This document shows, piece after piece, positions 2,360 through 53,960 of a DNA stretch of 64,000 bases (positions are counted from its first letter, which is position 1; the number at the start of each line of letters is the position of its first letter). Source of the DNA: Isoetes taiwanensis (lineage: Eukaryota; Streptophyta; Lycopodiopsida; Isoetales; Isoetaceae). The notes beneath the pieces were generated by a model. It had not been told where the DNA came from. It searched no databases and saw only the letters and a program-made list of their open reading frames with translations. Where the stretch lies: the NCBI GenBank assembly GCA_021234155.1, contig JAJEKV010000004.1:24405662-24469661 (forward strand), written 5' to 3'. Position numbers and translations under genes: made by a program.

Positions 2360-2361
<2 letters not shown>

Positions 2362-2589: not shown

Positions 2590-2644
<55 letters not shown>

Positions 2645-3048: not shown

Positions 3049-3104
<56 letters not shown>

Positions 3105-17611: not shown

Positions 17612-17624
17612 GATCTAGCCGAGG

Positions 17625-17740
17625 GTAAACATGTGGACTGCCCTTATCACAATGTACAATAAATGTGGACAATTAGAGGATGCGAACCTTTGATGATCAA
17701 GAATCTTTTTTGTGATTGTGGCAATATTCCTGATTAATTG
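17625..17740 (+). pseudogene. PPR repeat fragment carried in R3
   Basis: Same PPR scrap as in R1 (TALITMYNKCGQLEDANL in one frame), followed by the same diverged sequence. It is useful as a divergence gauge between R1 and R3. Confidence 0.65.
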
Positions 17741-19490: not shown

Positions 19491-20201
19491 AGATGTTCTT
19501 GTTACCATTGAACTATTGAGCTGCTTGCTTGTTTGCATGTTTGGCATTCATTGATTCACATTCTTATCCTCTTAGATGATGATTTATATCTTGGAAGCAA
19601 TAGCCAAGGAAAGATCTAATTAAAAAATAATGTTTATATTGGGCAGTGTGTGGCCGCATAATAGGATATACAACAAAGAAATATGGTGAAAAGGTTTTGC
19701 AGATCAGCTTGAGTTGACGTGAGTACTTGTCATATGAAGTGTCGCTTTTGCGTGTTACTAAAGTTTAATGTTTAATGGGTTACTTTAATAGTTTTCTTTT
19801 CTTGTAGAGATTTGTTGACAGTGTGGATCACTCATTTGGCTGCTTTCTTACTCATGGGATGCACATACATTTGATTGGGGAAACCAATGTGGGTTCTCGA
19901 AAATTTTAGCATTGTAGTTTTGTCATATAATGCCAGAAGATTTTCACTTTGACATTTGGAGGTTGAATAAATGAAACGTGCAAATGAGTTGTATAAATTT
20001 CTTAATATGAAACCTCTCTTTCATGAAAAAGGCTCAAGTTTGATAAATTTCTATATATGAAAGCCCTCTTTCACGATACAGATAGGCCTAGCAGATGATA
20101 TCGTAAGTTTTGCTTTGACTTATATGCATCAAGAGTCCGAAATGACAGAGCCAGATTCCATTGTGGAATTGAGGCGGATGCCACGTGCCACGCGATCCTA
20201 T

Positions 20202-20508
20202 TTCTATTTTGGTGGTCACGAACTAGTTTTTCAAAGAAAAAGCATTATAGTGAAGGCTTTTTTATATTCTACACTTGTAGTGGTACCTACTTATTCGAGG
20301 TTAAGACGACTATCAAGTCTTAAATTTGATAATATTCTTGATTAATAATGTTGATAATAAACTTGATCAAGTTTGCTATCAAGTTTAAGACTTGATAATA
20401 ATGTCTTAATCTCAAATAAGTAGGTACCACTACAAGTGTAGAATATAAATAAGCCTTCACTATAATGCTTTTTCTTTGAAAAACTAGTTCGTGATCACCA
20501 AAATAGAA
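20202..20508. mobile_element. Foldback MITE, copy in R3
   Basis: Uninterrupted 307-bp copy with terminal TTCTATTTTGGTGGTCAC and GTGATCACCAAAATAGAA and near-palindromic interior. It serves as the empty-site reference for the insertion at 16877. Confidence 0.85.
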
Positions 20509-22045
20509 GTTTGCATGCACAATCCAGATCTAGCAATTTCATGTATACAGGAATGATTCTGGTGGGGAAGGCTGGCCGACGCGCGATGACATGGAGACCT
20601 CCCTGACTCGCCGGAATTCAAGGCATGGGGCATTGATGTAACGTGAATACAAGTTAATCACAATTTTGTGCAGTAAAACCGTTGGAATGGAGGGTAAAAT
20701 GTTCGAAATGAAGGATAGAATGGTCGGAATGAAGGTAAAAATCCTAAAGAATCGAAAGACGCGGCAAAAACTCTCGAAATCGTGCCGCAGACAAGCATCA
20801 AACTTTTGGATCGACATCCTTGAAAAGCAAAAAAAAAATATGCTATGTGGCGCGATGCGATAGGCAGCAGAATTGTGATTAGCCTGTATTTACATGACCA
20901 TATTTATCATGGAAGACATCTAGTGTCGATAGAACGATGGTGCTCAAAATTACCTTGTCTCGTCAAGGTTACCTGTAGAAATGTCTTGAATATATGTGGG
21001 GGAATTCTACAAGTTTACAACAGGATGAAAGATAACTGGTATCGTATATCGGCTAATTGCATTTCGCGGGATTCACCTTTATCACATGAGCAAATGCCAC
21101 GTGCGTGCTTAAGGTGAGAAGAAACACCCAAATACATACGTGAAAGTGTTGGAAATACACCCCTTCCACGGAGAAAATACACTAGAATATTAGTAAGAGG
21201 CAGATTTAAACCCCTAGTATACAAACGGAAAAAACCCCCTTCCAACCACTCACTTGGTTTATACGGGTCTTCTATGTGCCTGGGAATTGCATACATCATG
21301 ATTTATCTATATGATATTATTTTATGTCTCTCAAGATGGACTTAATAATTTGGGGTGGTTCTCGTGAAGTTTAAGTTAATAATGATGCAATATTTAAATG
21401 GTGAAGTTTGAATTATTACATCCGAGGTGTATGTTGTAGAGGGGTCTAGATTGGATTTACCTAGTTATGCCTAGATTGGATTTACATTGTTATGATGTAG
21501 AGGCTATAAATATTAAGAAGGGCCTACATTGGATTTACATGGTTATGCCTAGATTGGATTTACATGGTTATAATCAAAAGTCTAAGTAGAGGCTAAAAGT
21601 TAAAGAAGTCTCCAATTACCTAAAAAAATGCAAGATAGGGAAAGAAGAAAACACACTCTTCTGCCTGACATGTATGATTGCATATCAGGGAGTTTCAACA
21701 TCAAGAAATGCATTAAAGAAAATGCAATTCTCGTGCCATGGAGCCTAATTATGTATGTCTCCATTGGTGTTTAGGCACGATGGGCAAAATAGTTCGATGT
21801 TCAGGCAATGTCGGATTGAATAAATAAAACGTGCAAATGAGTTGTATAAATTTCTAAATATGAAACCCCTCTTTCACGAAAAAGGCACAAATATGAAAGC
21901 CTCTTTCACGAAAAAAGCACAAATTTGAACGGGACAGAGATAGGCATAGCAGATAATATCGTAAGTTTTGCATCAAGAGAGTCCAAAATGGCAGAGCCAA
22001 ATTCCATTGTGGGATTGAGGCGGATGCCAAGTGCCACGCGACCCT

Positions 22046-22112
22046 GGTCACGAACTAGTTTTTAAAAAAAAAAAATATTATACTCTGTTTTTTTATATTC
22101 TACATTTCTCAA
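22046..22112. mobile_element. Half copy of the same MITE
   Basis: GGTCACGAACTAGTTTTT followed by an A-run, ATTATACTCTG and TTTTTATATTCTACATTTCTC matches only the left arm of the MITE. The matching half copy in R4 is at about 29445-29516. Confidence 0.6.
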
Positions 22113-22141
22113 GCAATAAAATGTGAAGCTTTATGGGGGTA

Positions 22142-22247
22142 GACTGCATTATACAGACCCCTCCTTGTGTCGCTGATATCTGGCCCTCCAGGCTTGGATT
22201 GGAGGGCTGGGATTGTGCCACGTTGGAGGGGGCTGTATAATGCAGTC
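22142..22247. mobile_element. 106-bp inverted-repeat mini element
   Basis: GACTGCATTATACAG at the left and CTGTATAATGCAGTC at the right, extended by CCCCTCC/GGAGGGGG, form 22 of 23 paired bases. An inner CCCTCCAGG/GGAGGG pair strengthens the fold. The R4 copy (from 29546) has lost the outer part of the right arm. Confidence 0.75.
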
Positions 22248-22380
22248 GTCCCGCTTTATGTCTTGCGGGGGCTTCTGATTGAATCGAGATAATTTTGGAT
22301 AACGCGGGGGCAAACGTTAATCTGCTGAACTTGCAAACGTTAATGCAATATATGAAACTGAATTTCACTTTGAACCTTTG

Positions 22381-22550
22381 AATTTGCTTAAGTGTAGTGC
22401 AAATATCTTAAGTGTAGTGCTAATGTGCAAATTTGCTTAAGTGTAGTGCAAATTTGCTTAAGTGTAGTGCTAATGTGCAAATTTGCTTAAGATAGTGCAA
22501 ATTGCTTAAGTGTGAAAATTTGCTTTAGTGTGCTCAAATTGCCTAAGTCC
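22381..22550. repeat. Short tandem repeat (TTGCTTAAGTGTAGTGCAAA-type)
   Basis: Units of about 20-42 bp built from TTGCTTAAGTGTAGTGC and TAATGTGCAAA recur about seven times and decay rightward into CTTTAGTGTGC and CCTAAGTCCC. The array lies just past the right edge of R3 homology. Confidence 0.8.
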
Positions 22551-23499
22551 CAACAATGCCAAGTGCCAATTTCCTAAGTCCCAACAAAGCTAGGTAGACT
22601 CTTGGCTTGGTCTCTTTACCAAGTTGGAGTCATTTAATGTTCTTTCAATGTCAGATCTGTTTGTCAAGTTTACAAAGTAAACATTCTTCAGTCTAAATCA
22701 AGGGTAGTCTAGCAACACACACAAAGAGGGTTAACTGATTACATACCTTGCACAATTAGCTAAGTTTTACACATTTTCCAAGAGGATAAGATTAAATCGA
22801 TATGTTCTTCACTTGGAGCTTGTCTTTTCAGCATGTAGCCAAATGCACATCTAAAAATCCACAATAATGTGGATGCAAGTAAAATCGAGTACAAGCGCAC
22901 CTCAAAGAAATTCCATTACAAGCAAATCCACTACTAGAAAGGCGAGAAATATGTTAAAACAAAGGGTTCAATCATGTCATTAAGAGATAAAAATTTATAA
23001 TCCGAGCACATAGTACCAAAATTTTTATAGAAATGGACAAGAGTTGAAGAAATTGCTTCCACCGCAATGTATATCGATTTCGATTACATTGTTTGAGCCT
23101 TTGCTCAAAGAACCCTAAAGTAAGTACAGTTTTGTACTTAAGATCCATGTACAAATGGTTTAATCTAAGTCCAAGGCAAAAACCTTTATTGTGGCATCAA
23201 ACCTCTTACGTGCTTGGGGCCGCGGCAAAGTACCTCGGATGTTGGAGGAGGCAAATACTCAACAATTTGTTCATGTGCCTCATTTGAAAGGAAGTATACA
23301 TGTTCCTCATCAGCTCTTTTGTAATTCAACTTTTGCACACACTACAAGGTGGGAATAGCGAGGTTACCTCGGGCATGTTGTGTAATGCATTTCGTATTTA
23401 CCATCTCCAATGCTCTTGTAATACTTACGACAATACAATTTCACACTTTGTTGAATTTAGAGCCCCATTAGTCCTTAAATGCACGTTCCACGGTGTGTT
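22551..23499. other. No assignable gene
   Basis: Sequence between the short tandem array and the decayed transposase. Frames are short and I see no signature. Confidence 0.4.
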
Positions 23500-26000
23500 T
23501 AGGTTCATTGCATAATGATCCGGAAATCAACATTATCTTCATTGCCCTCCTCGGCGTTGACAACAAAGTTGTCACCTACATCAACCATTTACGCCTTCCA
23601 GCATTGTCCCCTTCATCTTGTACATGAGTTCTGGATGCCTCTTCTACCACCTCCATAGGAAGTAAAGTTTCATGTGCATACTCTCAAGCCGAGATGCATG
23701 TCTACACTTGGACCCGCGGTTACGCCCGCGAGAATCTGCAAAAAACATGACGATGCATGTATTGCCCACTTCAAGAGGCCTGTCTTTGCATTATGGCCTT
23801 GATTGTATGTATCTTTGTTGTGCCTTTGAGAGTCTCACAATCATATTGCATGTCCTATTAACATCACCTAGCTTCACAAGCCAAAAAACTAATGTTGGAG
23901 TTCCAAACAGGTTAGTAGCGATTGAGAAGTAATAGCGACCAAAAAAGGAAAAGAAAAAGTATTGACTTTGTTTATGTTAGTCTCTTTCAAAGACAGGTTT
24001 GGAGCTAAAATACCAAATCGGGAAGTTCACAACATCTTGTGCATTCCTCAAGGGAGTCTTGTCTCGTTTGAGCATTTCACTTGTCAAAATTCTCTTTATG
24101 ACAGCTCCAAGACTGCGTCATGTTCCCCTTTCCCATGTGATGAAGCGAAAAAGTTCCACCCATCTTAATCCCTGTCAACTTATAGAATGCGCCTAAGAAG
24201 AAAAAAAGCCTAGAAGATTTGAACTGGGAAGCACATCCATCGGACGAAACACATGTTTAGACAAGTGTACTCCCTTGCTCAATAAAAAGTCATGATGACT
24301 TTGCAAAATCGTCTTTGGACAAACAAACTATCATGTTTCTTGTCATCGGATATGTAGAAATGTGTCTCTTTGACAATCTTTCTATCCCCAACCTTGATAT
24401 TTGGGATCTCTCCATCTAAAGCATGCCTGTATGTAATATGAACTAATATAGAACATTGGTCGTTATGCCTATGCATGCTCGGATTTCTGCCGAACTTTGA
24501 AAGAGAAATTCTCCGAAAGTCTATAACGAAACCATAGTACCTTTTGGAAAGATTGAAGGCAGTTCTTGAATCTGACCGCTTGCCATCCGGCGTGTAATTA
24601 TATGGGATAAACTATTTGATAACACCATCGGCATGTGTCATGAACTCCTTCAAGGTAGTTGTCTTGTACACAAGCCTCATAATGTCTTTGTCTTCTCTAT
24701 GATTTTTCCCTCGCCCTCTGGGACTTCTTTATTGTCTCCTTAACTGTGTTGACAAAAACAAGATGAATACCACCAAACAGAGCCAAAAATCTGTTTTGAG
24801 CACTACCATTCAATTGGCAAGTAAACAATTGGAAAACAATTGGTACAGGCGTAAATACCTTCTCAAAGTTCTTCCAATCGATAGTTCTCAATGCACTCTT
24901 CTCCCTTGGACATCTTCTTAGTTTCTTGATACCACAAAAAAGTGCGAAATAAGTTTAAGGCATTTTGCCTTGTGCCAAATCTCCTCCTCGTCTTACAACC
25001 GGACCCGGTGACCTCCATAGTTCACTTACAACGTTAAATGTTTTGTCTTTTGCTTCACAAAGGTCTCCTTACCACAAAGCGTACACTTGCAAGCACAATT
25101 TGGCCCATGTGTGTTTGGATCTCTTCTAATTCTATTCAAAGTCTCGCCTTACAAATTCCATCTTCATGGTAAATGCACATGCAAGTTTCTCGATCTTTCA
25201 ATCTCCTAACAAACAAAGGTTTCAAAGATTCAAACCTCCTCAATCCAATCTTCATGTCGTGGTGCTCTTTCTGAAATTTTTTTTGTAAAATACAACCTAA
25301 ATGAAAAAAAAAATGAACTCGTTAGAACTTTGTTTTACTTGAACTTTAAATGCATGTGCTTAGAATTTGCATGTAGGAAATGCATGTAATATGCAACATA
25401 GTGAAGAAGAAAATAAAGAAGACAAAGCATTGGAATTGAATAAAAATGAGAGTTAGAGATCTCAAAACACGAGATTCTTCCAAAAATGAATCGGATGCAA
25501 TCCGTAGGGTTTTCGAGTCTTCAAGCCTTTCGTTGCATCTTCTAAGCTTCACAACTTGCTTCTTGTTAGGGGAAACCCCGGTGTTGGAAATCCGGTAGTT
25601 GTATACCTTCTCTCGATCCTGTGAAAAGTTTGTCACTCCTATTCTTCCTTTTAAACATGGACCAAGGTCCACCAATTGCAAACTGCTCTCTTCTTGTCCA
25701 AAGCGGCATAAAACAGACCCTTCTCTTTATGTTCAATGTCTTTGCAATCTGAGACTTATTGTTGGAATTGTTGGCCCGACCATTAAAAGTGTAGATGATC
25801 TTGCATGAGTAATGTCATGATTCCTTCTTAGCTTGTTGCTTTGAAGACTGCTCTTAACATTATATCCCCGGCCCCAAAAATTCTTTGTGGCCCATGATGC
25901 CAATTTGAGGTAATCCTTGACTGTTCTTGCTAATATCTCATCCCTATCATCTTGAAACAAATTTTTGCACACATTCTAAATATTATCCAAAATATCTTTT
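23500..26000 (-). pseudogene. Decayed transposase-like gene (SDG..QFK / HGKGEHD type)
   Basis: Minus-strand pieces appear in family order. They are an upstream WATKNFWGRGYNVKS piece (about 25890), TIDWKNFEKVFTPVPIVFQLF (about 24888-24826), YISDDKKHDSLFVQ (about 24360-24318), SDGCASQFKSSRLFFFLG (about 24245-24192), YKLTGIKM, then after a frameshift WNFFASSHGKGEHD (about 24160-24119), and finally CETLKGTTKIHTIKAI (about 23843-23796). The SDG.a.QFK and HGKG.hD motifs are those of a widespread multicopy family of transposon-derived proteins in plants and animals. I cannot name the superfamily with certainty. Many stops and shifts; inactive. It lies between the two recent duplicates R3 and R4. Confidence 0.65.
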
Positions 26001-26643
26001 GCCAATTTACTTTTTGGTTCTAGTGGCCAATCTATGAGGGTTGCGGTGATTCTTGTGCCAATCTTTCGGCTCTTCTTTTCCTTTGCATTCTTCTTTTTGG
26101 CGGACATAATCTTCACCGCAAAGGCGTATTTGGTGATAAACATTTGCATTTAACACGAATCTGCAGTCACAACAAGTGTGTCCAATGAGACCTTTTCAAA
26201 CCAAAATGGGAGATGAAACTCTTTTAACAGGCAAAATTGAAGGGGAAGGCAATCCTTCTCCTAAATCTGTAATTCAGCGGCAACGACAGCAGCGGGATGG
26301 CACAAACTCGGCACCCTTATATCCGGTATTTTCCGGACTCCAAATCGAAGCCAGGGTCCTTTGCCACCGGTTACGGATCAAGCATTTCAATTTTGCTTCA
26401 AATTGGCAAAGAAAACGTTCAACCAAATCCATCTCTTCTTGAAAAAAATAGGAAGAAGTGCATCTTGAATGGGGAAGACGGATTTGGCGGGTATGATCAT
26501 TTTGAGAGGATGCTCTTGGCGGGCCAACGATCTCTCCTCAAATTGCTCGGCGGTTTAAGCTCATAAAACCCTAATTCGATAATGGAGTCTAAAATTAGGA
26601 AAAAGGCCAAAAGCACCCCCAAAGACCCAATGTATGCGTCCGT
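26001..26643. other. No assignable gene
   Basis: Two overlapping plus frames (26176-26442, 26297-26566) lack family motifs. The segment ends in a CACCCCCAAAGACCC stretch near 26617 that might be a transposon end; this is unproven. Confidence 0.35.
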
Positions 26644-26740
26644 AAAATTGCCCCCAATATTTTTTTTTTTTTTGAAGAACTGTGGTCGACAATATATTAA
26701 AAGAATGGTAATGTTACAAAGAAAATTGCCCCCCAATATT
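26644..26740 (-). mobile_element. Mini LINE/SINE insertion with ~18-bp target duplication
   Basis: AAAATTGCCCCCAATATT occurs at 26644-26661 and, with one extra C, at 26722-26740. Between them lies about 60 bp starting with a T-run (minus-strand poly-A). Minus-strand reading gives CTTTGTAACATTACC...GTTCTTC then the A-tail. The tail-proximal part resembles the end of the LINE at 62958 (CTTTGTAA..., GTTCTTATAAAAA), so it is probably an extremely 5'-truncated L1 copy. Confidence 0.8.
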
Positions 26741-26754
26741 GTGCTTTGACCCTT

Positions 26755-29690
26755 AGGTTTTTGTAACAATATTGTACATCACTTATTCCATGCATCAGTA
26801 AAGCCAATGAAATGCTGCAACTGGACATAATACAGATTACCTAAATGAACCAGCACCATGATCAGATAGCAAGAAATGCATAGCAATGGGCAGTCTTGGA
26901 AGATTCATTGCTTCCGGACGCTTGAATGTTCTTGTTACCATTGAACTATTGAGCTGCTTGCTTGTTTGCATGTTTGGCATTCATTGATTCACATTCTTAT
27001 CCTCTTAGATGATGATTTATATCTTGGAAGCAATAGCCAAGGAAAGATCTAATTAAAAAATAATGTTTATATTGGGCAGTGTGTGGCCGCATAATAGGAT
27101 ATACAACAAAGAAATATGGTGAGAAGGTTTTGCAGATCAACTTGAGTTGACGTGAGTACTTGTCATAATATGAAGTGTCGCTTTTGCGTGTTACTAAAGT
27201 TTAATGTTTAATGGGTTACTTTAATAGTTTTCTTTTCTTGTAGAGATTTTGTTGACAGTGTGGATCACTCATTTGGCTGCTTTCTTACTCATGGGATGCA
27301 CATACATTTGATTGGGGAAACCAATGTGGGTTCTCAAAAATTTTAGCATTGTAGTTTTGTCATATAATGCCAGAAGATTTTCACTTTGACATTTGGAGGT
27401 TGAATAAATGAAACGTGCAAATGAGTTGTATAAATTTCTTAATATGAAACCTCTCTTTCATGAAAAAGGCTCAAGTTTGATAAATTTCTATATATGAAAG
27501 CCCTCTTTCCGCGATCTGAGATAGGCCTAGCGCATCTATATAAGTAAGTTTTGCTTTGACTTATATGCATCAAGAGTCCGAAATGACAGAGCCAGATTCC
27601 ATTGTGGAATTGAGGCGGATGCCACGTGCCACGCGATCCTATTTCTATTTTGGTGGTCACGAACTAGTTTTCAAAAGAAAAAGCATTATAGTGAAGGCTT
27701 TTTTATATTCTACACTTGTAGTGGTACCTACTTATTCGAGGTTAAGACGACTATCAAGTCTTAAATTTGATAATATTCTTGATTAATAATGTTGATAATA
27801 AACTTGATCAAGTTTGCTATCAAGTTTAAGACTTGATAATAATGTCTTAATCTCAAATAAGTAGGTACCACTACAAGTGTAGAATATAAATAAGCCTTCA
27901 CTATAATGCTTTTTCTTTGAAAACTAGTTCGTGATCACCAAAATAAAGTTTGCATGCACAATCGGATCTAGCAATTTCATGTATCACGAGGAATGAAAGG
28001 CTGGCCCGTAGTGATGACATGGAGGCCTCCACACTTCGTAGGAATCCAAGGCATGGGGCATTGATGTAACGTGAATACAAGTTAATCACAAATTTGTGCG
28101 ATAAAACCGTTGGAATGGAGGGTAAAATGTTAGAAATGAAGGATAGAATGGTCTAATGAAGGTAAAAATCCTAAAGAATCGAAAAGACGTGGCAAAAACT
28201 CTCAAAATCGTCTGCATGAGACAAGCATCAAACTTTTGGATCGACATCCTTGAAAAGCAAAAAAAAATATGCTATGTGGCGCGATGCGATAGGCAGCAGA
28301 ATTGTGATTAACCTGTATTTACATGACCATATTTATCATGGAAGACATCTAGTGTCGATAGAACGATGGTGCTCAAAATTACCTTGTCTCGTCAAGGTTA
28401 CCTGTAGAAATGTCTTGAATATATGTGGGGGAATTCTACAAGTTTACAACAGGATGAAAGATAACTGGTATCGTATATCATCTAATAATTGCATTTCATG
28501 ATTCACCTTTATCACATGAGCAAATGCCACGTCGTGCTTAAGGTGAGAAGAAACACCCAAATACATAATGCGTGAAAGTGTTGGAAATACACCCATTCCA
28601 CGGAGAAAATACACTAGAATATTAGTAAGAGGCAGATTTAAACCCCTAGTATACAAACGGAAAAAACCCCCTTCCAACCACTCACTTGGTTTATACGGGT
28701 CTTCTATGTGAATCCCCTGGGAATTGCATACATCATGATTTATTTTATGTCTCTCAAGATGGACTTAATAATTTGGGGTGGTTCTCGTGAAGTTTAAGTT
28801 AATAATGATGCAATGTTTAAATGGTGAAGTTTGAATTATTACATCCGAGGTGTATGTTGTAGAGGGGTCTAGATTGGATTTACCTAGTTATGCCTAGATT
28901 GGATTTACATTGTTATGATGTAGAGGCTATAAATATTAAGAAGGGCCTACATTGGATTTACATGGTTATGCCTAGATTGGATTTACATGGTTATAATCAA
29001 AAGTCTAAGTAGAGGCTAGAAGTTAAAGAAGTCTCCAATTACCTAAAAAAATGCAAGATAGGGAAAGAAGAAAACACACTCTTCTGTCTGACATGTATGA
29101 TTGCATATCGGGAGTTTCAAAGATCAAGAAATGCATTAAAGAAAATGCAATTCTGTGCCATGGAGCCTAATTCATTGGTGTTTAGGCACCGATGGGCAAA
29201 ATAGTTCGATGTTCAGGCAATGTCGGATTGAATAAATAAAACATGCAAATGAGTTGTATAAATTTCTAAATATGAAACCCCTCTTTCACGAAAAAGGCAC
29301 AAATATGAAAGCCCTCTTTCACGAAAAAAGCACAAATTTAGATAGGCGTAGCAGATAATATCGTAAGTTTTGCATCAAGAGAGGCCAAAATGGCAGAGCC
29401 AAATTCCATTGTGGGATTGAGGCGGATGCCACGTGCCACGCGACCCTGGTCACGAACTAGTTTTTAAAAAAAAAAATATTATACTCTAAGGTTTTTTTAT
29501 ATTCTACATTTCTCAGGCAATAAAATGTGAAGCTTTATGGGGGTAGACTGCATTATACAGACCCCTCCTTGTGTCGCTGATATCTGGCCCTCCAGGCTTG
29601 GATTGGAGGGCTGGGATTGTGCCACGTTGGAGGGGGCTGTATCTTTATGTCTTGCGAATTGGATTTTTTCTGCCTGCTAATTTTTGCATA
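26755..29690. repeat. Complex repeat copy R4 (recent duplicate of R3)
   Basis: From AGGTTTTTGTAACAATATTG at 26755 this matches 19324 onward almost continuously to about 29690, with a constant offset of about 7.42-7.44 kb. It contains a MITE, the ~25-bp repeats (28866-28990), the half MITE and a truncated mini inverted repeat. Most differences from R3 are small clusters of indels and substitutions at or beside CG dinucleotides. Confidence 0.93.
27643..27946. mobile_element. Foldback MITE, copy in R4
   Basis: Copy of the 307-bp MITE with the same arms as 20202-20508; one base is lost in the right-arm A-run (AAACTAGTTC versus AAAACTAGTTC). Confidence 0.85.
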
Positions 29691-39957: not shown

Positions 39958-40900
39958 AATATGATCCAAGCACCAACATATTCAATCTCGGCACCAACAT
40001 ATTCAATCTCTTAGTCTTTATCAGGGAGAGGGAGCCAAGATTGTTGGGCACTCCTAGAATGCTTTTGCCGCAGAAGCAGCCTAACAATTCCCAGGCAAAT
40101 GGGCTATGAGACATATGATGAAAATCAATCCCAGATGCAGAAAGGAGTTTAAAATGGTACCCGGAATGTCCTAAATCTACTGGCAATGTGCCCTTTAAGA
40201 GACAATATTCAGTGGTCTTTGCGACATTAATAGTTTAGGTGCAAAATAGATGTCAACTGTAGCCAAAACTTATATTTAAGCACGGAAAAGGACGTCATCC
40301 AATTTGAGAGTAGATGTTTATCTTGTGGCACATCAAAGCCAGGGTTCACTTTTCCTTCTGAAAACAGAATGCAGACTCATATACCACATTAATGGCCTCT
40401 TTTAGCTATTCAAAGAACCTTCTCTCTTTTTCCTCTTACGTTTTTGATATGCACTGAGATATGGAAAGAAACACTAAGCGCTTAATAGGATGGTGCCATT
40501 GCAAAATTAATAGCTGGAAAAGAAAGATGCAATTATCTAAATCGGCTTGCAAATCTTTGCTTGATAAAACCGCTAAAAGAGGTCTCGCAAATCCTATTAT
40601 CTATGCAATGTTGTGTGAGGATTACATAGCAAAGGGATTCAGTTCCTAAGAAGCTTGTATGTTATATGTTATGTCAACACCAATGATGTGGTGGCCTCCC
40701 CTCTCACAAACGAGTCTATTTCCCTGATGAATCTTCTACATATTTTTTGAATGTCTCAAAGGTGACTTGGGCTCTAACCGAAAATGCACATAAGGTTACT
40801 TCTACGCCGCCAAGCTCTTAGGTTGCTGCAAACCGCTCTTTGACAACCATAGCTGAAGCACATAATTAGATGTCAATGTAGCTACGAAAGAAAAACAAAC
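39958..40900. repeat. Segmental duplication, copy A (~0.9 kb)
   Basis: Starts ATATGATCCAAGCACCAAC and aligns with 41475-42350 at an offset of about 1.5 kb (shared AACAATTCCCAGGCAAATGG, GGAGTTTAAAATGGTA, TGTCCTAAATCTACTGGC, CATCAAAGCCAGGGTTCA/CATCAAGGCCAAGGTTCA). Copies are clearly diverged. No gene assigned. Confidence 0.85.
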
Positions 40901-41470
40901 TCATACCTTAGAAAAATAATCTTGACCATACAATACACATGCTTCAAAGTTACGGCGACACCCTCTTGAACATTTGTGCATAAAAAAAAAGCGGGGATCC
41001 GGTTTATTAGTACATTTTTGCCTTGTGCCACATCAACAAGGCCAGACATGATGCCATCTGCTACATCTACATTTCGGCAAATGAAAAAAAAGGTAGAAAA
41101 GACAGGCTATAATAATTTCATCATCATAAATTTTGAAGGTCGTAAATGCCATGGACCAGACTTACATCTCTATTTCTAATACCACATGCATACTTCCTAT
41201 ACATTGATTTGAGCAACATGCTGCGTATATGGACAGAGATGCCATTTCTTGCGATGAGAGTAGAATGTTAAGCGGTACTTAAAAGAAACCACAAGGATCT
41301 TTTGGTAAATCAAAGCATGTGAACCACAACATCAGATATGGCTTGGCTTACGGCTACGGGCACTGGCACACTACCTCTTCATGATATATAAAGGCCTCAT
41401 CCCTTACAAACTAAATAACTGCATGTAGAATAAGTTAAGAGAGGCATACCATAACATCTTGAATATACTT
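40901..41470. other. Between segmental copies, no gene
   Basis: Short frames only, including 67 codons at 40976-41179; no motif recognised. Confidence 0.4.
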
Positions 41471-42350
41471 GGAATATGATCCAAGCACCAACATATTCAA
41501 TCTCAGCACACTTTCCCACAATTCCTCAGAAGTTTGCCTCAGAAGCAGCATAACAATTCCCAGGCAAATGGGCACATGAGATCTGATAAAAATCAATCCC
41601 AGGGCCTTGAAAGGAGTTTAAAATGGTATGGGAATGTCCTAAATCTACTGGCCATGCTGCCCTTTAACAGACAATATTCATTGGTCATTGCGACATCAAG
41701 CTGCAAACTTAGATGTCAATTGTAGCCAGAACTTGTACCTAAGCATGGAAAAGGACATCATCAATTTGAGAGAAGCGGATGTTTGTCTTGTGGCACATCA
41801 AGGCCAAGGTTCATTTTTCCTTCTGATAACAGAATGCAGACTCATCTACCACATTGATGGCCTCCTTCAGCTATTCAAAGAACCTTCTCTCTTTTTCCTC
41901 TTACTTTTTGATATACCTGCAGAGATATGGAAAAAACACACGAGCACTTAGTAGGATGATGCCATTGCAAAATTGATAGTTGGAAAAGGAGGATGCAAAC
42001 ATCTAAATCGACTTGCAAATCTTGTATTTAGAAACCTCAAAAGAGGTCTTGCAACTCCTATTATCTATGCAATGTGGTGTGAGGGATTGTGTAGCAAAGG
42101 GATTCAGCTCCTAGAAGCTTGTATGTTATATGTTATGTCGATGTCAATGATGACATGGTGGCCTTCCCTCTATAAATGATTCCTTTTCCACGATGACTCT
42201 TCTATAGACTTTCTTAATATTTCAAAGATCTCGACTTGGGCTCTAGCAGAAAATGCACATAAGGTTACTTCAAGAACTGATGCTCCTCCCTCTCTTAGGT
42301 CGCTTTGCAACCGGCTTTGACAACCATACCTAAAGCACAAAATTAGATCT
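41471..42350. repeat. Segmental duplication, copy B
   Basis: Direct, diverged copy of 39958-40900, ending near GACAACCATACCTAAAGCACA. Copy A has a 23-bp local duplication (GGCACCAACATATTCAATCTC twice, near 39988) absent here. Confidence 0.85.
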
Positions 42351-44764: not shown

Positions 44765-45829
44765 GATGCAAAATGGTAGTAGACATACCTGATTCTTGAA
44801 GTGGATTTGAGGTTACCTTTTCTGTGTTGATAGAAACAATCTAGGTCAAGCTTGAGATTTCTTTCTGTTGTAACACAACTAATAATTGAACATACACCAA
44901 TGGCATGTTTTGGTCTCGAACAACATTGCTCTGCTTTTTTTTTTTGATTGTGAGTTCAAATTGAATGTGTGGTCTAAAGGAACTGATTTGGTTTTTCCCT
45001 ATCATCTTCATCATCCCTGTCACTTTTACTATTTTCTTCCTGGTCAGGTTGGTTTTGCCTATGCTTTCTCTCGGTCTAGAAGAACTGGCCTCTGCTTTCT
45101 CATCGGGAGTTCTATAATAATCCGAGAAGCTCTTTCAATTAACAGCCTCCCCATTTATATGCAGATAATAAGCCACTGCCCAGGTTCCAGGAGCCATTCC
45201 ACCCCATGTATGTGGCTTGCTTGTAATTCTTTTGTAAATTTGCATGGACTCGTTGTATTGTTCTTCAATCTGTACAAGAAAACATATGCCTTAATTTTTC
45301 AGTTTGAACAAACATTTGGAGGAAAATACCTGTAGCCAGATTTATTTGGAACTCTGTCACCCCAAAGCTTCTTTAGATCTTCATGGGGCACAATCTCTTG
45401 TTTGAGGAGAGATTTCATCGTGTAACCAGTGGCATTCAATTATGACTCCATTAGGGTTCAATCAGCAAGAAGCGGCAAAAAAACAGAAGAAGAGGTGATT
45501 ATTTCTTAATTCGAAATGAGGGACAATGACGTGGCATACAATTCAAAATAACCGACGCTCATTAATTCGCACTCCCGCAATCTCCGTTTCGGTATGCACC
45601 ACCCGATTCTACCACAAAGAAGGTGCAAAAATGTGGCGTCAAAATGCGCATTTTTGATACACCACAGCGTGCTTTTACCCAGGGTTCTTGATCTAACAGA
45701 CCTTTGTTCTAAGGCTATGGATCTCCAATTGAGGTACCATAAGTGCAAATCTAAGCAAAACAAGGCAAGAAACACTACATGGCAGTTTATTGGGTCAAAT
45801 TTGGCCAATCCATGTCAAAATGGGTCAAC
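44765..45829. other. No gene recognised
   Basis: A plus frame of 149 codons (44886-45335) and an antisense frame (45506-45808) have no family features and start within AT-rich sequence. Confidence 0.35.
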
Positions 45830-46345
45830 TTCGGGTAGGTTCACGAAAGGGATCTGCGTTGCTGACGTGGGCGTTTAACCTGAACTCACTTTCGGTTTTG
45901 CCAATTTCTAAAAAAACTAAACTTCTCTGAGGGTTGTAAGATGCTAATCTGCCTATTTGGATCAATGTTAAGCTAACTAGGAACTTATCTCATGCTAATT
46001 GGACATCTAGAAGTGCAATTTGAGGGTACTTTCAGTGGAGTGCGTCTTGAAAGCAGACTGCGTCGCGACAGGGCGTTTGGCGGACTCACCCGGTCGATGG
46101 ATTTTTGCTATTTTTGGATGTTTTGGCCACGATTAAGTACTAAACTAGATTTCTAAACAAATTCTAAGCATTTTACTATCTTTTTGCACAAAATTTAGAT
46201 CAATTTTGCCCCAAATCGAGGTACTCGGGTGGGTTCGCGTGAAAGCGGGCCTGCATTCTTGAATCTGGCGTTTGGCCTTGGACTCACCCGGGTCGGTCAA
46301 TTTTGAGCCAAATTTTGATTTTAGTGCTAAAATTCTATGCTAATT
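45830..46345. repeat. ~200-bp diverged tandem repeat, three units
   Basis: A block of the type GGGTTCGCGTGAAAGCGGGCC ... GGCGTTTGGC ... GGACTCACCCGGGTCGG recurs near 45832, 46037 and 46228, separated by AT-rich filler containing AATTCTAAGCATTTTA in the second and third units. No coding content. Confidence 0.7.
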
Positions 46346-46521
46346 AAACAATTCTAAGCATTTTAATTATGATACAAAGGATTATACTCACATTTAATTC
46401 ATACAAGAATACTATCATATCAAGAAAGAGGTTTATTTTGAGAGAAAAAAGGACTTTTTAGATAATGAAAATATCTGAGGGGAAAAACTTATATTTATAT
46501 AGTTTACAAAATTGGAGGTCT
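46346..46521. other. 3' flank of the H3-like locus
   Basis: AT-rich, without recognised features. The sharp change from GC-rich to AT-rich at about 46520 marks the 3' end of the H3-like coding region. Confidence 0.5.
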
Positions 46522-47612
46522 TCAGGGCTTTTCCTTGCGGATCCTCCTCGCCAGGTGCAGGTCCTTTGGCATCACCGTCACCCGCTTGGAGTGGATCGCG
46601 CAGAGGTTACCTTCTTCAAAAAGTTGGGTCACCTCTGCCTCTGCTGCCTCCTGCAGGGCTCGGATGGTCAGGGGTGTCACTCTGTAGTCCGTCCGGAACT
46701 CCTGCATAACCTCCCGAAGGAGCCGCTCGAACGGCGCCTTCCTGATGAGGAGATTAGTGCACTGCTCTCTCGGAACACACGGCATGCCTAGAGTTGGGCC
46801 CGTGGTGCACCTTCTTTGGTGGCTCCGGTCTTGGTGGTGGCAGCTTGGGCTGATTCTTCGACCACCCACCCTTAACGTACTTTTGTACGTTCTGCTTACA
46901 GTACCAATCATTGTACCTCTTCCATCTATGGAGGTACTCTTCTTGCGATCTTTGGAATTCCGGGTCTTGTTTGGCGTGAATTCCCTTCATCCACCTTCTC
47001 CTTCTTCACCACCTTGATTGGTGGCCACCAGGGTATGGTGGGCAGCCGTTTGGGTCTGATGGCTCCCCCGCGTCATGCTCGGGCTCCTCCTGCTCCTGCC
47101 CGCTTTCCTCCTCCTCCTCCTCCTCCTCGTCGGTGGGGTCCCGACGAGGTTCTTCGATGTGGACCGTCCCCCTTGGGCGGTCCTGGTCCCTCTTGGACCT
47201 TTTCTCCTTCCTTCTTGCCTCCTTCTCTCGCTCCCTCTTCTTCCTTTGGGCCCTCTCCTCGGGCCATTCTGCCACCTTCTCCTTGCCCTTCTTCTTGCTC
47301 GAGGTGCCAACCCCAAGCTCTTCTTTGCTCTTCTTTGCTTCTTTGCTGCTTCTTCTTTATCCCTCCTCCTCCTCGTCGGACGGCCAGGCTAAAGTGGGCG
47401 GTCTCGTCATCCCGCTTTGCATCTCCCGCGGAGGAGCTGCTCTGGGCTTCCTCCTGGGAGGCATGGAAGGTGTCGTCTATGGAGCTAGACGACTCCTCCT
47501 CCCTCCCCGGCCAAAGGTGCTCGGGCACTTGCTTTCCTCCTCCCGCCGCCTTTGCTATCGAAGGTGTGCGCCTTGTGCTATACTTTCTGGGTGTGCATTT
47601 GGTGCACGCCAT
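46522..47612 (-). pseudogene. Histone H3 homologue with a ~270-residue charged insertion
   Basis: On the minus strand the ATG at 47612 begins MACTKCTPRKYST, then TPSIAKAAGGGK. This aligns with the H3 tail ARTKQTARKST...ATKAARK, keeping Lys4 and Lys9 equivalents; R2 is Cys (CGC to TGC). The H3 core resumes near 46815: KKVHHGP (as KKPHRYRP), [38 protein letters not shown], then [20 protein letters not shown], ending ARRIRKEKP. Between them lies a linker with Ser-rich acidic (EEESSSSIDD), Lys/Arg-rich (RKKREREKEARRKEKRSKR), poly-Glu (DPTDEEEEEEEE), aromatic-basic ([20 protein letters not shown]) and Pro-rich parts. The tail, linker and core lie in three different frames, and the linker frame has TAA at 47357-47359 and TGA at 47006-47008. 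This copy is therefore probably inactive, or has unrecognised introns. TNLLI recalls CENH3, but loop 1 has canonical H3 length. Confidence 0.8.
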
Positions 47613-47624
47613 ACAGTTAGGCAA

Positions 47625-48030
47625 ACTGATTACGTTAAGCTGACTATCAAGGAAGGAGGTTTAGGCAAGGTTAGGGAAAAAATGGGGTGGCAAGAAGATA
47701 TTTAAAAGGGAAGATGCTCTAGGGAATATTCTCCTACCATTAATAGCCCTATTAATTAGCCCCCCTTATTAATTATCTCAGTATACCTATTTATTAGTAT
47801 ATGGTTAATGTTGTATCCTATTGTTTAAATTTGGTTTTTCCGGGGTTCCGAAAACTTTTTGGATTTTTTTTTGGGTTAGTTTTTCTAAGGTTTTTAATAT
47901 TTTGGCCGCCGGAAAGGATTTCCGAATTCCAAAAATCAGACATATCAAAATCTTTTCATTTTGGGGCCGATTTCCATGGTGTCTTATCTTCGGCATGCCT
48001 GCCACGCTTGCTCGGATACAACTCTATCTT
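47625..48030. other. AT-rich 5' flank of the H3-like locus
   Basis: Composition switches sharply at about 47620 from GC-rich coding to AT-rich. A TTTTAAATAT stretch (minus strand, about 47707-47698) could serve as a TATA-like element about 90 bases upstream of the ATG; this is weak evidence. No other gene seen. Confidence 0.35.
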
Positions 48031-48032
48031 CT

Positions 48033-48335
48033 AAGCCATCCGGATAGCAGAATCTGGACTCCACAGAAGCCATAGAAGCGGCATACTCCACAGGGGCCAT
48101 AGAAGCGGCGGCACCACAGGCGTCACAGATTTTGAGCATCACATATTTCTTCACGGATTTTTAAAGAAGAGCATCAATAGGCTTGAGAGATCCGTTTTTG
48201 AGATTTGTTTTCAAAAAGCCACCCGGATAACAAAATCTGGATTCCACAGAAGCTATAGAAGCTGCATCAAAGGCTTGCGATTTTGAGCATCACAGTTTCT
48301 TCCGCAGATTTTGAAGAATCTCCAAGCTCTTAGGC
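48033..48335. repeat. ~185-bp diverged tandem duplication
   Basis: AAGCCATCCGGATAGCAGAA-type sequence starts at 48034 and again at 48221 (AAGCCACCCGGATAACAAAA). Both continue with TCTGGA.TCCACAGAAGC.ATAGAAGC and ATTTTGAGCATCACA. The first copy contains an extra internal partial repeat (CCACAGG..CCATAGAAGCGGC). Confidence 0.8.
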
Positions 48336-50748
48336 GATCCGCGGTTCTGAGTCCGCGGATGTATGTAGGTCCGCGGATGTATGTCGATCACATGTTTTTC
48401 TGCAAATCGATTTTTGTTCTGCAAAAGGGGATTTTAGAAGGCATGAGCGCATGATAAGGTTTGTTTCATGGATGGGTCCATTTATTCTACATCCGTTTGC
48501 TTGGTGACCTCTGCAAATGGATTCCACTGTTGGGCATTTTATCTCGTTTTATCTGGATTGCCTTTGCCCTAATTTGCACTCTTCGTTTCGGGGAATAAGA
48601 ATGGCGGTAGTGTCGGCATGCATGCCATGGTTGTTCAACGGGGATATCGGCTTTGATCGGTTGAATAAGCGGTGTTGGTTCTTGCGGATGGCGGGGAGAT
48701 ATGCACATTAGTTGTTGGCATGGATCATTATATATAAAGAGAAGCATAATCTCGGACAATGCGGTTGTATGGTTCTTCATTGAAGTTGTTCTCTTAGATG
48801 GCGGTAGCATCAACTCCAGCGATGTCTTTGGTAAGTTTATTTTTCCAAAGCGAATCTCTCTCTCTCCCATCTTGGTTGCATATATATGAAGCCATAGTCT
48901 TTGTCTTGAGCTTTTAGTTTCTTCCCTATCCGATTTCATTATTACAAGTTTCTCTATTGCTTATAGAATCTTGCTTTGGAGTCCGAAATGCTGAAAGTCT
49001 TGCTCATGGGCGACAGTGGCATTTATGATCCGATCCTCTCCATAAAGGGTAAACAGCTCCATGTTGATTCTTTCATAACTTAGGTAACGAGGTTTCACAT
49101 TATTCTAATCTACATTTGTTTGCATTTCAATTGCAATGCAGTGTTTAGCATTGAGTTTGCAAATGGTTTCTTATTTTTGTAGGTTTCTTCCGTTTGTCAG
49201 CTTCTAACCATATCTGCTCTCATTCACACAATAAAAGAGCACTTCCCCGTGAACCCAGCATAGAGAATAAGTCTTTAGCTCGCCAACTAAAACAACCTAG
49301 GTATTTTTCCCACCTTCACTTCATGGTATTGCCGATGTTTTGCTTGTAGATTTGCTTCCAGCACTACTTTAAAATTATATGCATGAAGGCGATTTCACAA
49401 TGTGCAGATGCATGAGCATGGAGCAATAAGATACTAGATCAAACAATTGCACGCTTTTATCCAGCAAACACCCATAATATAGCACGCCTTCCCAACCTCA
49501 TCTTGACATTCAAGGTATGACGCTATTCTTTGTTAATCAATAGACTAATACTATCATACAATGGCTAATATTCCAATAGGACATCCATTTATTCTACAAC
49601 TTTTTTTCCTTCATATATGTATGAGCTATTGCAAGCATATATTGTTACGATGCATATATATATCACGTTGTGCCAACAAGAATGTAGAGATACTATAAAT
49701 TATTTATTGACTGGCTACTCTGCGCATGCATGTATCTTAGTCCCTTCGATGTCCTTTTTTTAAAAAAGATGCAATAGCTGCAAGTACCAATGTGTTCTAC
49801 ACTTGAATTGAGGTATGTCTGATGCTATATTAAATGAAACTAAAGTCTAACATCTTATGCTTTTGTTCTAATATTAAAGCCTTTTCACCAGTGGTGTTTA
49901 TAGCTTAGAGTGTGGTCTAAGCACCCACAACCCACGCTGAAAAGCACGAAGTCAATGAGCTATGTGTGCACAAACACAAGTAAGCTCTCTGCTTTACATT
50001 TGAAAGTTCAAAGTACACCTCTGACTTGGACTTCGGTTTCAGTTAGTTGTAAGCAATGATTGCCTTTTAGACATGAGCATATTATAAACCATATAGTGGT
50101 TGCTTTGCATGCTTAGGTCGAACTATCGAGTGCCATGTTTATTCCAGCATCAGGTTTTAGTAATGCCTATAACTGCATTAGTGCATTGACATGCTCAATT
50201 TTCTTATCTTCTTTGCCATATATAATATTTTGCAATGGTCGTTTCTTGAGTAAGATCTTTACACCTGACATCATTTTATTCGAGGATTCTGTTTTGGATA
50301 GCAGATGTTGTATTGGCACCATAAACAGCACCATTCAAATCTACTTCTATTCTTGCATCACCGAAATCGAGGAAATGAATTGTTCAACCTAGCAGCTACA
50401 CTTCAACAATCTTGACACCATACTTCCGGAAGTTTGTCCACAGCCAGAAAAGGGTTGAGGTCGTCATATGGTAGTAGAAGCTATGGCGTTGATTTCCAAG
50501 GTTTACTATCTCTAGCATTTTTGATGTACGATATAATATGCTATCTGCAAAATCACTTCTCCTTTGTTAAAAATCGACAATGAAGTCACACTTTGTGCAT
50601 TCAAATATAATGCAAGATGGACAACATTAACAATGTCGTATTGGAGATAAGCTCATTTTCTATGTTCACATTCCTTTACAACTATGCATATGCATTTCTT
50701 ACAAACATGCATAACAGTCGCATATTCAGGTTCCATGTTACGTATGGT
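48336..50748. other. 2.4 kb without a firm gene
   Basis: Short exon-like pieces occur. One starting near 48989 (MLKVLLMGDSG) recalls the first strand and P-loop of small GTPases but lacks the GK[ST] step. Another near 49440-49513 reads NTHNIARLPNLILTF. Evidence is too weak for a gene call. Confidence 0.35.
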
Positions 50749-50932
50749 CAATGAATCTTGCAATGTTCCTCTATATTACCCTTGAAGGAATTGACATTCT
50801 CTTTGGGGTTCATTCCACATAGGAAAACAACAACCAAGCAATGAATCTTGCAATGTTCCTCTATATTACCCTTGAAGGAATTGACATTCTCTTTGGGGTT
50901 CATTCATTCCACATAGGAAAACAACAACCAAG
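50749..50932. repeat. 90-bp near-identical tandem duplication
   Basis: CAATGAATCTTGCAATG begins at 50749 and 50839. The copies match through AACAACAACCAAG except for a CATT insertion in copy 2. The near identity implies a recent event or an assembly artefact. Confidence 0.95.
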
Positions 50933-51717
50933 CAACTCTGAAATTATTTTCGTTATGTGGCACATTCGAATCCATATTCTTTCCAACTACATTGTCGCAT
51001 TGCACTTTAAAGATTTCAATTGTCACATTTCCCACAAACAACTATGTCACTTCAAAACTACGTCATAGAATGTGCTCAATATTCCTATCCCAACGGCATG
51101 AACTTCATTAGCTAAGATTATTAAATCATATCGTCACAAACTTGAATTCTAATTCATCTCCACTACTTCCAAACACAAATCATATAAACTACTTCCATAT
51201 CAAGACACAACAAAATGAGACTATTTGTATGTAGTCCAACAAAATACCACATACACAAAATTAATGAATTACACTTGCCTCCTCCAACCGACATCGATTC
51301 TTCTACCCAACCATCACACAACGACCTCTTCAACTGTTGAAAAGCCCGGCAACGCAACAAAATACCATAACTAGTTATACCATGAATTTCAAATTTTTCC
51401 TAATGGTTTGAAGTGTCAATTATGAATTTCGCCATTTTCACCGGGTTCTCGGATTGGGATGATTCTTCAACCCATTTTGGGTGAAATCTGATGGTGATGC
51501 ATAATTTCCACTCCAACTTTACTAGAATGTTAATTTGACTTATTCTTTTTCCCCCATTAACAACTTAGCCTATTCTTACGGACCCACTACCTAGGAGAAA
51601 ATGTTTCCTTATTTTCAAGGTTCCATGGTGGAAATTTTTATTCCACACCCTATAAGGCCTGTTAGACTACTTACTAGGGACATGGTCAGTGCTAGTTCTT
51701 GGTCAACCACGAACATC
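50933..51717. other. Presumed internal start of the gypsy element, no clear gag
   Basis: On the minus strand this lies just 3' of the primer binding site, where a leader and gag would be expected. I see no zinc knuckle or protease, so the element is probably truncated or diverged. Confidence 0.4.
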
Positions 51718-51731
51718 GCTCTGATACCATT
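51718..51731 (-). promoter_or_regulatory. Retrotransposon primer binding site (initiator Met tRNA)
   Basis: The minus strand reads TGGTATCAGAGC, the complement of the 3' end of plant initiator Met tRNA, separated from the LTR terminus (GGGAGCGTCACA) by one or two bases. This is the standard site where plant Ty1/copia and Ty3/gypsy elements prime minus-strand DNA synthesis, and it fixes the element's orientation. Confidence 0.9.
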
Positions 51732-53257
51732 GTGACGCTCCCTACAAAATACACGGCACCCGGCCGTACACTCTGTAGGAAATCCCACATCACGGTCCTT
51801 GACGACCGCGGGCCCCTCCGTCTATCCTGCACTCCAGGGTATCCCTAGTACAGGAAGGGGACACGAAGGTGTCTTGCGGGCCCTTCCCCTATGGGCTCCT
51901 ATCACAGCGGAAACATAAACAACGTCAGAACTAGCAATAACAATACGTCATACTACCTCGAAGGGTAGCACATCCACATATCCATAGCTACAACAGAGAT
52001 AACATATGCCGTAAAACATGGGAGCTCCTACCCAGGTAGACTGACGGCTAGGCCTCAAGATAGAGCAGACCGAGTCATAACAATGGCGGGGCTGGCTATA
52101 GACAATGGCTAGGGTTGACCACTCCATCCGCCCCTCCTGTGCATACTTTGCAGATGGGGTAGATCGGGCTCTGGCATGACTCTAGCCTTCCGGATACGCA
52201 ATCTCACGGTATCACCCGTCGGACTACTCCGGGTTGCATCTCCTCAGCCCGTTGAGGCAGGAAGGGTTGCATCTCCCCTTCCCGGGGTCTAGAGGTTCCA
52301 CGGGCGGCTAGAGAATCGTGGCGACACCGCGATCCATCCCGACTTAACCCCCAAAACAAGAGCCGGGCCAACTCACAGTAGCTCTTGAGAGGCGAGGCAA
52401 CACCATTGCCCGGGAGGTGTGTCGGACCCATGCCCGCCCACAGTGACCGACCATAAGCCTAGCTTGCTCGGGGTCCCCGGTAGCCACGCGGCGAGGGGCC
52501 CTCCCTCCGTATCTCCTCTAACCCCATATGTAGTCTTTGAGTCACATCATAGCCCCCATAGCCTGGTGGGTTCCTATGCACATGCCGCAATATAATAGGA
52601 ACTAAAGGGTCTAACCTAGGAGCATTACTAAGTAAGGCTACTAGGTCTCTACCCCCCTTCCCAATACAAGAGGAGCAAACATGATCAACCATCATCATAC
52701 AACTTCATATCATGATAATCATCAGAATAACATCTAACCTAATCATACATATCTAACTTACAGTTAGGGTTCCTTGATTAGGGTTCAAGATGTTGAATAA
52801 GGGTTCTAGGATGGCTCTACTCTAGATACGAACTACTACCTCATCTGGAGTGCTAACTTCCAGATGAACTACTAAGAACACTACTCCAAATATCTGCTCT
52901 CGAAGTGCTCCCTCCCATTCTTGGCGTCTCCATGATCCTCAAAGTGATCGATGCCGCGCTCACTCCAAGATCGTGCACGCCCTCTGGGGGCTGCTGCACT
53001 AGGCTATGCCACAACAAACGACGCTTGAAACGGAGTTTCGAGTGCAAAGAATGTTCCCAAGATGTTAGGGCCAGGAAAAGAGGTCTATGGTTAGGGTTTA
53101 GGTTAATATAGGTTAGGGTCCACATGGGATGACATGTGGCTCCAATGGGATATGGCCATGTGGCGGTTGCCCAATAGGATAAGGCCATGTGGAACATGGG
53201 CCTTATCCTAAGGTTATCTAAGTTATATACTTAACTTAGAGATATGCACCCATGCCA
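51732..53257 (-). mobile_element. 5' LTR of a Ty3/gypsy-type element, ~1.5 kb
   Basis: The LTR 3' end is set by CGTCACA next to the primer site. Minus-strand promoter-like sequence lies near the other end: GTATATAACTTAG (about 53230-53218), followed by CCTAACC repeats. The likely 5' terminus is TGGCATGGGTGCA at 53257, though TGCATATC at 53248 is also possible. The body is GC-rich and contains several CCCGGG-type sites. A related but diverged LTR end occurs at 17328-17611. No second LTR is visible within the window for this copy. Confidence 0.75.
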
Positions 53258-53960
53258 CTTCCTAAGTATAGTGATGGACCCGAGAAATATACGTATTTAT
53301 AAGCGTATATTTTCCTGGAACGTCCGCAGGGCTTACCCTTGCTTAAAGGTTCTGGACAAGATTTTTTGTTGGCGGAGATAGTGCATAAGGTACCCCATCA
53401 ATTAGGTGTAATAGTGAAGCAAAGATGGCATGGTCTCCTTCGACCTTTAACAAAGAAGGGGTTTTGAGTCCGAAACTTTGCGAAAAAAGCAATAGAGGTT
53501 GATCTGATAAAGTACCAAAGAGCAAATACCGTTCTAATAAGCCATAAATAATTATTCTTCTAAGGTACTGAACGCTGACCTGATAGACAGCAGTCAAGAT
53601 CAAAGCGCTCGGCAATGTTAAATTACAAGCATAAAATAATGCAATCTACCACGCCAAAATTAGCCAATAAAACCGTTCTCGCCACCGCCTTATATTATCG
53701 ATCGAAAATCTAGAGGCATTAATCTGCTGCGACTGATGGAAAGGCTGGAGAAGCCTAGATTCTCATAAGTCTGTCCTCTTTGAGGCGGCGTTCAACAAGG
53801 CAATTCTCACGTCTAACTGGTATCGAAAGGCTGCTTTCGAGAATCATAGATATCTGGAGGATCCAGTAGCATTCGGGAGGGAAAAAGGAGGGGAGAAAAC
53901 AACCCTAAAACAGAAACTCACAATGTGTCGCCCAATATAACACTGGAACAAATGATAAGT
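53258..53960. other. No assignable gene
   Basis: An antisense frame of 90 codons (53343-53615) has no motif. The sequence up to the U6 copy shows no transposon ends. Confidence 0.4.

Follow-up and report, generated by a model that had tools for sequence, protein, structure and literature searches.

How does a histone H3 fold come to be separated from an H3-like N-terminus by a long charged linker, and what kind of genetic unit carries such a gene? The question is raised by a locus at 46522-47612, minus strand, of a stretch of 64,000 nucleotides from Isoetes taiwanensis that we call the window. The gene runs from an ATG at 47612, where the frame opens MACTKCTPRKYSTRRTPS, to a stop codon at 46522-46524, in the order H3-like N-terminus, long charged linker, H3 fold.

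A frame-broken gene and its relatives

The last ~80 residues of the window gene are an H3-type histone fold, matching the Pfam Histone family (E = 3.8e-26) and H3 chains in the PDB (E = 7.5e-28). The initial annotation had read the start as an H3 tail and the end as the H3 fold. The fold is borne out by these matches, whereas the likeness of the tail stops at residue ~10 (ARTKQTxRK), short of residue 27. The linker, proposed as ~270 residues between H3 positions ~27 and ~36, is likewise real, but its bounds have moved; it reaches from residue ~10 to the alpha-N helix, and has ~280 residues in the intact relative L040. In genes of this kind, termed type A, the tail is therefore not joined directly to the core as it is in H3, the linker lying between them.

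Each of the three pieces of the window gene lies in its own frame on the minus strand. The N-terminus MACTKCTPRK and the start of the linker occupy 47391-47612 (frame -3), the charged, Pro-rich linker 46718-47377 (frame -1) and the core 46525-46767, extending to 46522 with the stop codon (frame -2). They are assigned by alignment to L040, with which they are collinear, and the core by Pfam and PDB in addition; together they cover nearly the whole gene. Because the three are in different frames, and the linker frame holds stops, the window copy is dead, as the frame changes had already suggested. The GC contrast of the coding island is also present, although it had been called sharp and is only moderate: 46-51% at 46-48 kb, compared with 41-45% in the kilobases next to it and, for the most part, 34-43% in the rest of the window. 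At 1761-4027 there is a long AG-rich tract of low complexity with extreme GC and AT skew, whose frames mimic charged proteins and give spurious matches to the linker.

Are there intact relatives? The assembly of 1,658,258,908 bases in 1110 contigs was searched with the window core, and the 150 scored matches were 85-100% identical, with open frames of at least 350 amino acids in 35 of them (counted by hand). The tail/linker half gave 154 matches, few of those listed being stop-free; many type-A copies are thus decayed, though the query itself crosses a frameshift, which is part of the reason for the stops. At least 28 places, the window included, were matched by both searches on the same strand within ~1.2 kb (judged by eye), and the H3-like N-terminus was included in the match at 25 of the 28. 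It follows that a single gene holds tail, linker and core, which do not belong to separate genes. Nor is the linker an insertion private to the window copy, since the same linker is present in relatives and found by the tail/linker matches. Open relatives with all three parts exist, a possibility that the initial annotation had raised: L040 is open from ATG to stop over 384 amino acids, starting MARTKQTYRKTS, and L043 is open likewise and ends six residues later than the others. The suggestion that an intact member would be a novel variant of H3 or a histone captured by a transposon has also held up, such members lying in LTR retrotransposons (below).

Twenty type-A loci were fetched, again including the window. 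The motif M-A-x-x-K-x-T occurs near the expected place in 17 of the 20, which rules out a chance likeness of the tail. Sixteen of these are stop-free over the first 23 codons and give a readable N-terminus; the seventeenth, L031, starts MACTKCT and then meets a stop, and no tail was found at L037, L044 and L046. Among the 16 readable copies K4 is kept in all and R8-K9 in 13, with residue 5 being Q in seven and C in nine. The linker bears basic and acidic blocks. The cores are 56-61% identical to host H3. Type-A proteins retain the fold and have a free N-terminus with the K4/K9 context, but the HRYRPGT stretch that contacts DNA is absent, and the chaperone site at 87-90 reads LTTR or LTVR in place of TAVL or SAVL.

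A Ty3/gypsy element with an extra open frame

A search of the genome with the Pfam Histone family brought out a second kind of gene. All 150 candidates scored were above the cut-off, the lowest at 144.5 bits, from 8705 first-look candidates, a loose number that is not a copy count; a control family with the histone fold, PF00808, gave 15 matches in 150 scored of 1214. The eight best Histone matches (L001-L008) are canonical H3. Stop-free open frames of at least 440 amino acids were counted by hand in 28 of the 150, and 20 loci, chosen for their long open frames, make up our type-B set. All 20 encode 445-494 amino acids (stop to stop), laid out as an N-terminal domain, a linker, a tail-like stretch and the H3 core. 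The typical motif of the N-terminal domain is RIPYPIFHFNERF...YTLVEQ, which varies between subfamilies. Two type-B proteins scanned with Pfam matched histone-fold families solely, their N-terminal domain having no Pfam match, and against PDB sequences the domain of L010 found only two chance-level matches (E = 0.57 and 0.7). The idea that the type-A linker is a remnant of this domain was dropped when a profile comparison gave no homology. There is no free ARTKQT N-terminus in type B. The HRYRPGT stretch is retained (with F for Y in 9 of 20, and K for R42 in 7 of 20), as are alpha-N and the fold, and the 87-90 site is F/H-A-I/V-L where the host has TAVL or SAVL.

The left edge of the type-B loci is sharp, with flanks that differ before it. 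Upstream of ORF1, the H3-bearing frame, 16 of the 20 have the exact LTR start TGTGACGTTCC. At its end the LTR reads GAGCGTCACA, and next comes TGGTATCAGAGC, which we take to be a primer binding site of the initiator-tRNA-Met type; in 13 of the 20 its exact core lies within the 1.5 kb upstream of ORF1, at a distance of 0.5-0.7 kb from the open frame. An exact search of the genome for the junction of LTR end and PBS gave 1,891 occurrences (969 + 922), a count of elements of this LTR type and not of H3 genes; the reversed pattern, as control, occurs 0 times. For contigs within the junction listing, which does not extend to a match on C479, the junction was located by eye at 8 of 12 element-type H3 matches, in each case 1.0-2.9 kb upstream and on the strand of the match. 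It is absent within 3 kb at the other four (C201, C236, C418 and the plus-strand match of C50), and none of four canonical-score H3 matches has it upstream.

One type-B element could be read at both ends (L019 with L050 and L051). It is ~11.3 kb long, with LTRs of 1585 and 1579 bp (K2P 0.043), a purine-rich tract before the 3′ LTR and GTGACC on both sides. Thus TG...CA LTRs with a target-site repeat are present in this copy; the repeat has 6 bases, against the 4 or 5 given as usual in a survey of plant LTR retrotransposons (PMC6317226). The same element contains gag and protease, but its RT is deleted and its pol broken. The integrase matches rve at 29.8 bits (below the cut-off of 32.6) and SH3_Tf2-1 at 75 bits (E = 5e-21), and is followed by a chromodomain (Chromo, 33.4 bits, E = 4.3e-8, cut-off 25.1); this C-terminal chromodomain was found in the L019/L050 element only, where the domains are in separate frames of a decayed copy. 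In L023 Pfam finds Ty3_capsid (1.2e-16), RVP_2 (5.8e-13) and a partial RVT_1 (3e-14). As to the order of RT and integrase, L019 lacks RT and L023 ends within it. The gag has a zinc knuckle CX2CX4HX4C by eye, with Pfam E values of 0.002-0.02 that are under the curated cut-offs. Between ORF1 and gag lies ORF2, of up to 502 amino acids (e.g. L023:3279-4784, minus strand), with shorter open pieces in L009, L015, L016 and L019; that of L023 had no Pfam match, and a PDB sequence search with it was empty. In a flank of L023, at 279-1031 of the reverse complement and on the minus strand of that orientation, an open frame resembles a SET-domain fragment by eye.

The window copy can be placed in the same framework, on the minus strand throughout. 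A 5′ LTR of ~1.6 kb occupies 51731-53328, starting TGCGGACGTTCC (a start placed by likeness to type-B LTRs) and ending GAGCGTCACA; pieces of 54-298 bp align to type-B LTR regions at 73-83%. One base past its end is the primer binding site TGGTATCAGAGC at 51718-51729, so that the chromovirus feature of a PBS right after the 5′ LTR is present. Comparison with the 19 other type-A loci divides what follows into a first part of the leader (51375-51717), an extra segment of ~3.56 kb (47817-51374), the second part of the leader up to the ATG (47613-47816) and, beyond ORF1, a 3′ stretch common to relatives (45681-46521). The extra segment is absent from 14 of the 19, in which the two leader parts adjoin with match ends within ~45 bases of each other. 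L030 (95%) and L031 (91%) match the window's version as far as those loci extend and share its inner end, and these two alone keep matching below 45681; L037, L044 and L046 are uninformative on the segment. It may be a nested insertion or a part of a subfamily. The window copy has a 5′ LTR only, no second LTR being found in a self-comparison of 36-60 kb, and no gag-pol was found in the window with that of L019 and L023 as queries. On its contig (C1045) five tail/linker-like places lie on one strand at ~24.093, 24.173, 24.306, 24.382 and 24.453 Mb, a sign that a large unit may have been duplicated locally.

Types A and B seem to be of one lineage, judging by the related LTR pieces, by gag and protease that are 31-52% identical in one decayed type-A copy (L045 with L052), and by a weak similarity of ORF2 (24% over 142 amino acids, E = 7e-6 with composition statistics off). 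We are confident, to the point of near certainty, that the window gene is ORF1 of a Ty3/gypsy retrotransposon, and equally so of the anatomy, pieced together from several copies: LTR, PBS, ORF1 (the H3 fusion), ORF2, gag, protease, RT followed probably by integrase with chromodomain, LTR.

Constraint and origin of the H3 core

Has the histone part been kept by selection? Pairwise dN/dS was estimated by the method of Nei and Gojobori and is given as medians, for type-B pairs with dS of 0.15-1.5 and unsaturated type-A pairs with dS of at least 0.1. In type B the core gives 0.035 (20 sequences, 80 of 190 pairs), the N-terminal domain 0.10 (16 of the 20 sequences and 36 pairs, L012, L018, L026 and L028 being dropped for a motif mismatch) and the tail-like stretch 0.15 (20 sequences, 68 pairs, maximum 0.58). 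In type A the core gives 0.04 (20 sequences, 170 of 190 pairs), tail codons 1-35 0.17 (16 sequences, 105 pairs), codons 1-12 0.23 (28 pairs, median dS 1.3) and the pre-core 0.09 (nine open sequences, 26 pairs); the type-A core read out of frame, as control, gives 1.70 (83 pairs). Pooled, uncorrected pN/pS for type A is 0.07 in the core, 0.29 in the tail, 0.34 in codons 1-12, 0.31 in the pre-core and 2.14 out of frame, thus exceeding the medians outside the core. Copies were picked by their likeness to H3, and those of type B by their open frame too, so the core values are biased downward, the N-terminal domain and tail less so. Intact copies look to have been preserved by selection, as read from a sample that was itself chosen for H3 likeness.

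The cores of type B are 82-89% identical to host H3 in protein and 69-75% in DNA, taking the best host match of each copy. The closer agreement in protein than in DNA is more in keeping with long retention under constraint on the protein than with a recent capture. In a tree of the cores, drawn without an outgroup, type A is one clade and type B one side of a branch at 79/73, with host H3 beside B. Compared by majority residue, the two types have one substitution relative to host H3 in common, I124L (18 of 20 in B). They may descend from one capture of H3 or from two.

Possible roles and known parallels

The account that we consider the most probable, with some confidence, is that a chromovirus-like Ty3/gypsy lineage took up a histone H3 gene, kept it through amplification, and uses the H3-bearing ORF1 by way of chromatin. 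The mechanism itself is more tentative. The ORF1 protein would pair with host H4 through the histone fold and be placed in, or docked on, chromatin, where the element-specific part might bring the pre-integration complex or, alternatively, weaken silencing marks on the element's own copies. In type A a long arm would carry an H3 N-terminus with K4/K9 at its tip, and in type B an element-specific domain would be attached to an H3 that is nearly canonical. It is possible that the lineage encodes H3 variants of its own and installs them in host chromatin, the element supplying a part of the nucleosome; the protein would then mark or open chromatin for integration, or else protect the element against silencing. 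For type A deposition is doubtful, because both HRYRPGT and the 87-90 chaperone site are lost. A link between the H3 of ORF1 and the chromodomain of the integrase would be weak. The aromatic cage of HP1 is formed by Y24, W45 and Y48 (PMC3350952), and the one chromodomain that could be read has Leu at the last cage position by our own alignment, the first being unreadable; since Leu replaces a cage aromatic, a role in reading methylated K9 is unsupported. The plant survey states that in type II chromodomains of plants the first cage residue is missing, as the last usually is too, and that no partner is known for them (PMC6317226).

The main rival, unlikely on balance and strongest for type A, is that the protein is a decoy, competing for modifiers, readers or chaperones and so weakening silencing outside nucleosomes. 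The fully conserved K4 and largely conserved R8-K9 at a free N-terminus, with the DNA-contact stretch lost, are what such a decoy might look like, and single histones of viruses, as described in a review (PMC9145170), offer an earlier example of stolen histones that act on the host. Yet type B is without the ARTKQT N-terminus, and the type-A core is itself strongly constrained. Rather less probable is a packaging protein, with the fold and the basic linker binding the RNA or cDNA of the element in the virus-like particle and not chromatin. The basic and acidic blocks of the linker, and the position of ORF1 upstream of ORF2 and gag, are consistent with this; against it, gag has a zinc knuckle of its own, and neither the near-canonical H3 of type B nor the H3 N-terminus of type A would be needed for general binding of nucleic acids. 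There is little to be said for a passenger, a host H3 captured by chance and hitchhiking without a role: extra ORFs in plant LTR elements are very diverse and their function has been questioned (PMC6317226), but dN/dS is low in both families, including regions that were not used for finding the copies, and in both, with gag ~40% identical between them, ORF1 occupies the same position. A dispersed family of host H3-variant genes outside any mobile element might account for intact ORFs with an H3 core and for the four matches in 12 that have no exact junction, but it is scarcely credible given the shared LTR, PBS, gag-pol and target-site repeat and a Histone match in every candidate scored, against one in ten for the other histone-fold family.

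How far does a retrotransposon-encoded H3 that would act through chromatin have parallels? An additional ORF in an LTR retrotransposon of plants is reportedly found in Retrosat2 too, as ORF0. Centromeric H3 (CENH3) likewise has an H3 core with an unusual N-terminal part, but is a single host gene where the H3 described here is repeated in an element. CENH3 also has a longer loop 1, and no insertion within the fold relative to host H3 was found in the alignment rows shown. The features of Helitrons and Helentrons (Rep/helicase and no LTR) do not apply, there being LTRs, gag and pol instead.

An element with an extra ORF is already known; what seems new is that the extra ORF is a histone. In the plant survey, Ogre, Retand and Athila carry a long ORF (eORF-5′F) in a Ty3/gypsy element as here, where it lies between the 5′ LTR and gag; the domains named for such ORFs are the plant mobile domain, Transposase_28 and Athila ORF-1, and here H3 (PMC6317226). 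They are described as common and mostly without a known role, and the main text uses the word histone once, for chromodomain binding. Single H3s of Manila clam xenomavirus and Dishui Lake phycodnavirus and the H4 of bracoviruses are also one host-like histone each, mostly 73-89% identical in the fold and sometimes with a longer N-terminus, in the review of viral histones (PMC9145170). Their H3 chaperone site, SAIL or TAIL, resembles the F/H-A-I/V-L of type B, and the same text considers viral single H3s likely to enter host chromatin. They differ in being carried by DNA viruses or virus-derived particles and not by a many-copy LTR retrotransposon, and in having neither the ~280-residue linker of type A nor the new N-terminal domain of type B. 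Helentron-Cq-32A of Culex is likewise a transposable element with histone sequence (H4 and H15), but these are fragments with a stop, a frameshift and indels in eight copies of a rolling-circle element (PMC4067079), where the present ORFs are intact and the element has LTRs. These broken fragments and the single histones of DNA viruses are the nearest cases in the literature searched. No LTR retrotransposon with an intact histone ORF was found in the literature searched, from which subscription papers and preprints were mostly beyond reach, and the word histone is absent from the main texts of the genome papers of I. taiwanensis (PMC8566536) and I. sinensis.

The presence of a histone as extra ORF in two families with low dN/dS offers a role that is directly testable. 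If our reading is correct, viral histones would be extended to retrotransposons, a large set of natural H3 variants would be provided, changed in tail, DNA contacts and chaperone site, and these elements may produce a chromatin protein in a version of their own. There may be a consequence for annotation as well: for I. taiwanensis, repeats with BLASTx matches to plant proteins were removed before masking, as stated in the genome paper (PMC8566536), a step that might remove elements with an H3 gene from the repeat library, so that they would be counted as genes.

Other repeated and element-like sequence occurs in the window. Tandem or dispersed duplications overlap at 10756-29642 (for example 19321-22238 and 26753-29642, at 95%), a direct repeat lies at 40064-42348 (40064-40871 and 41533-42348, at 83%), and an open frame at 8060-8704 resembles a LINE-type reverse transcriptase by eye (ALIPKVEKPSTIEEWRPIALTN).
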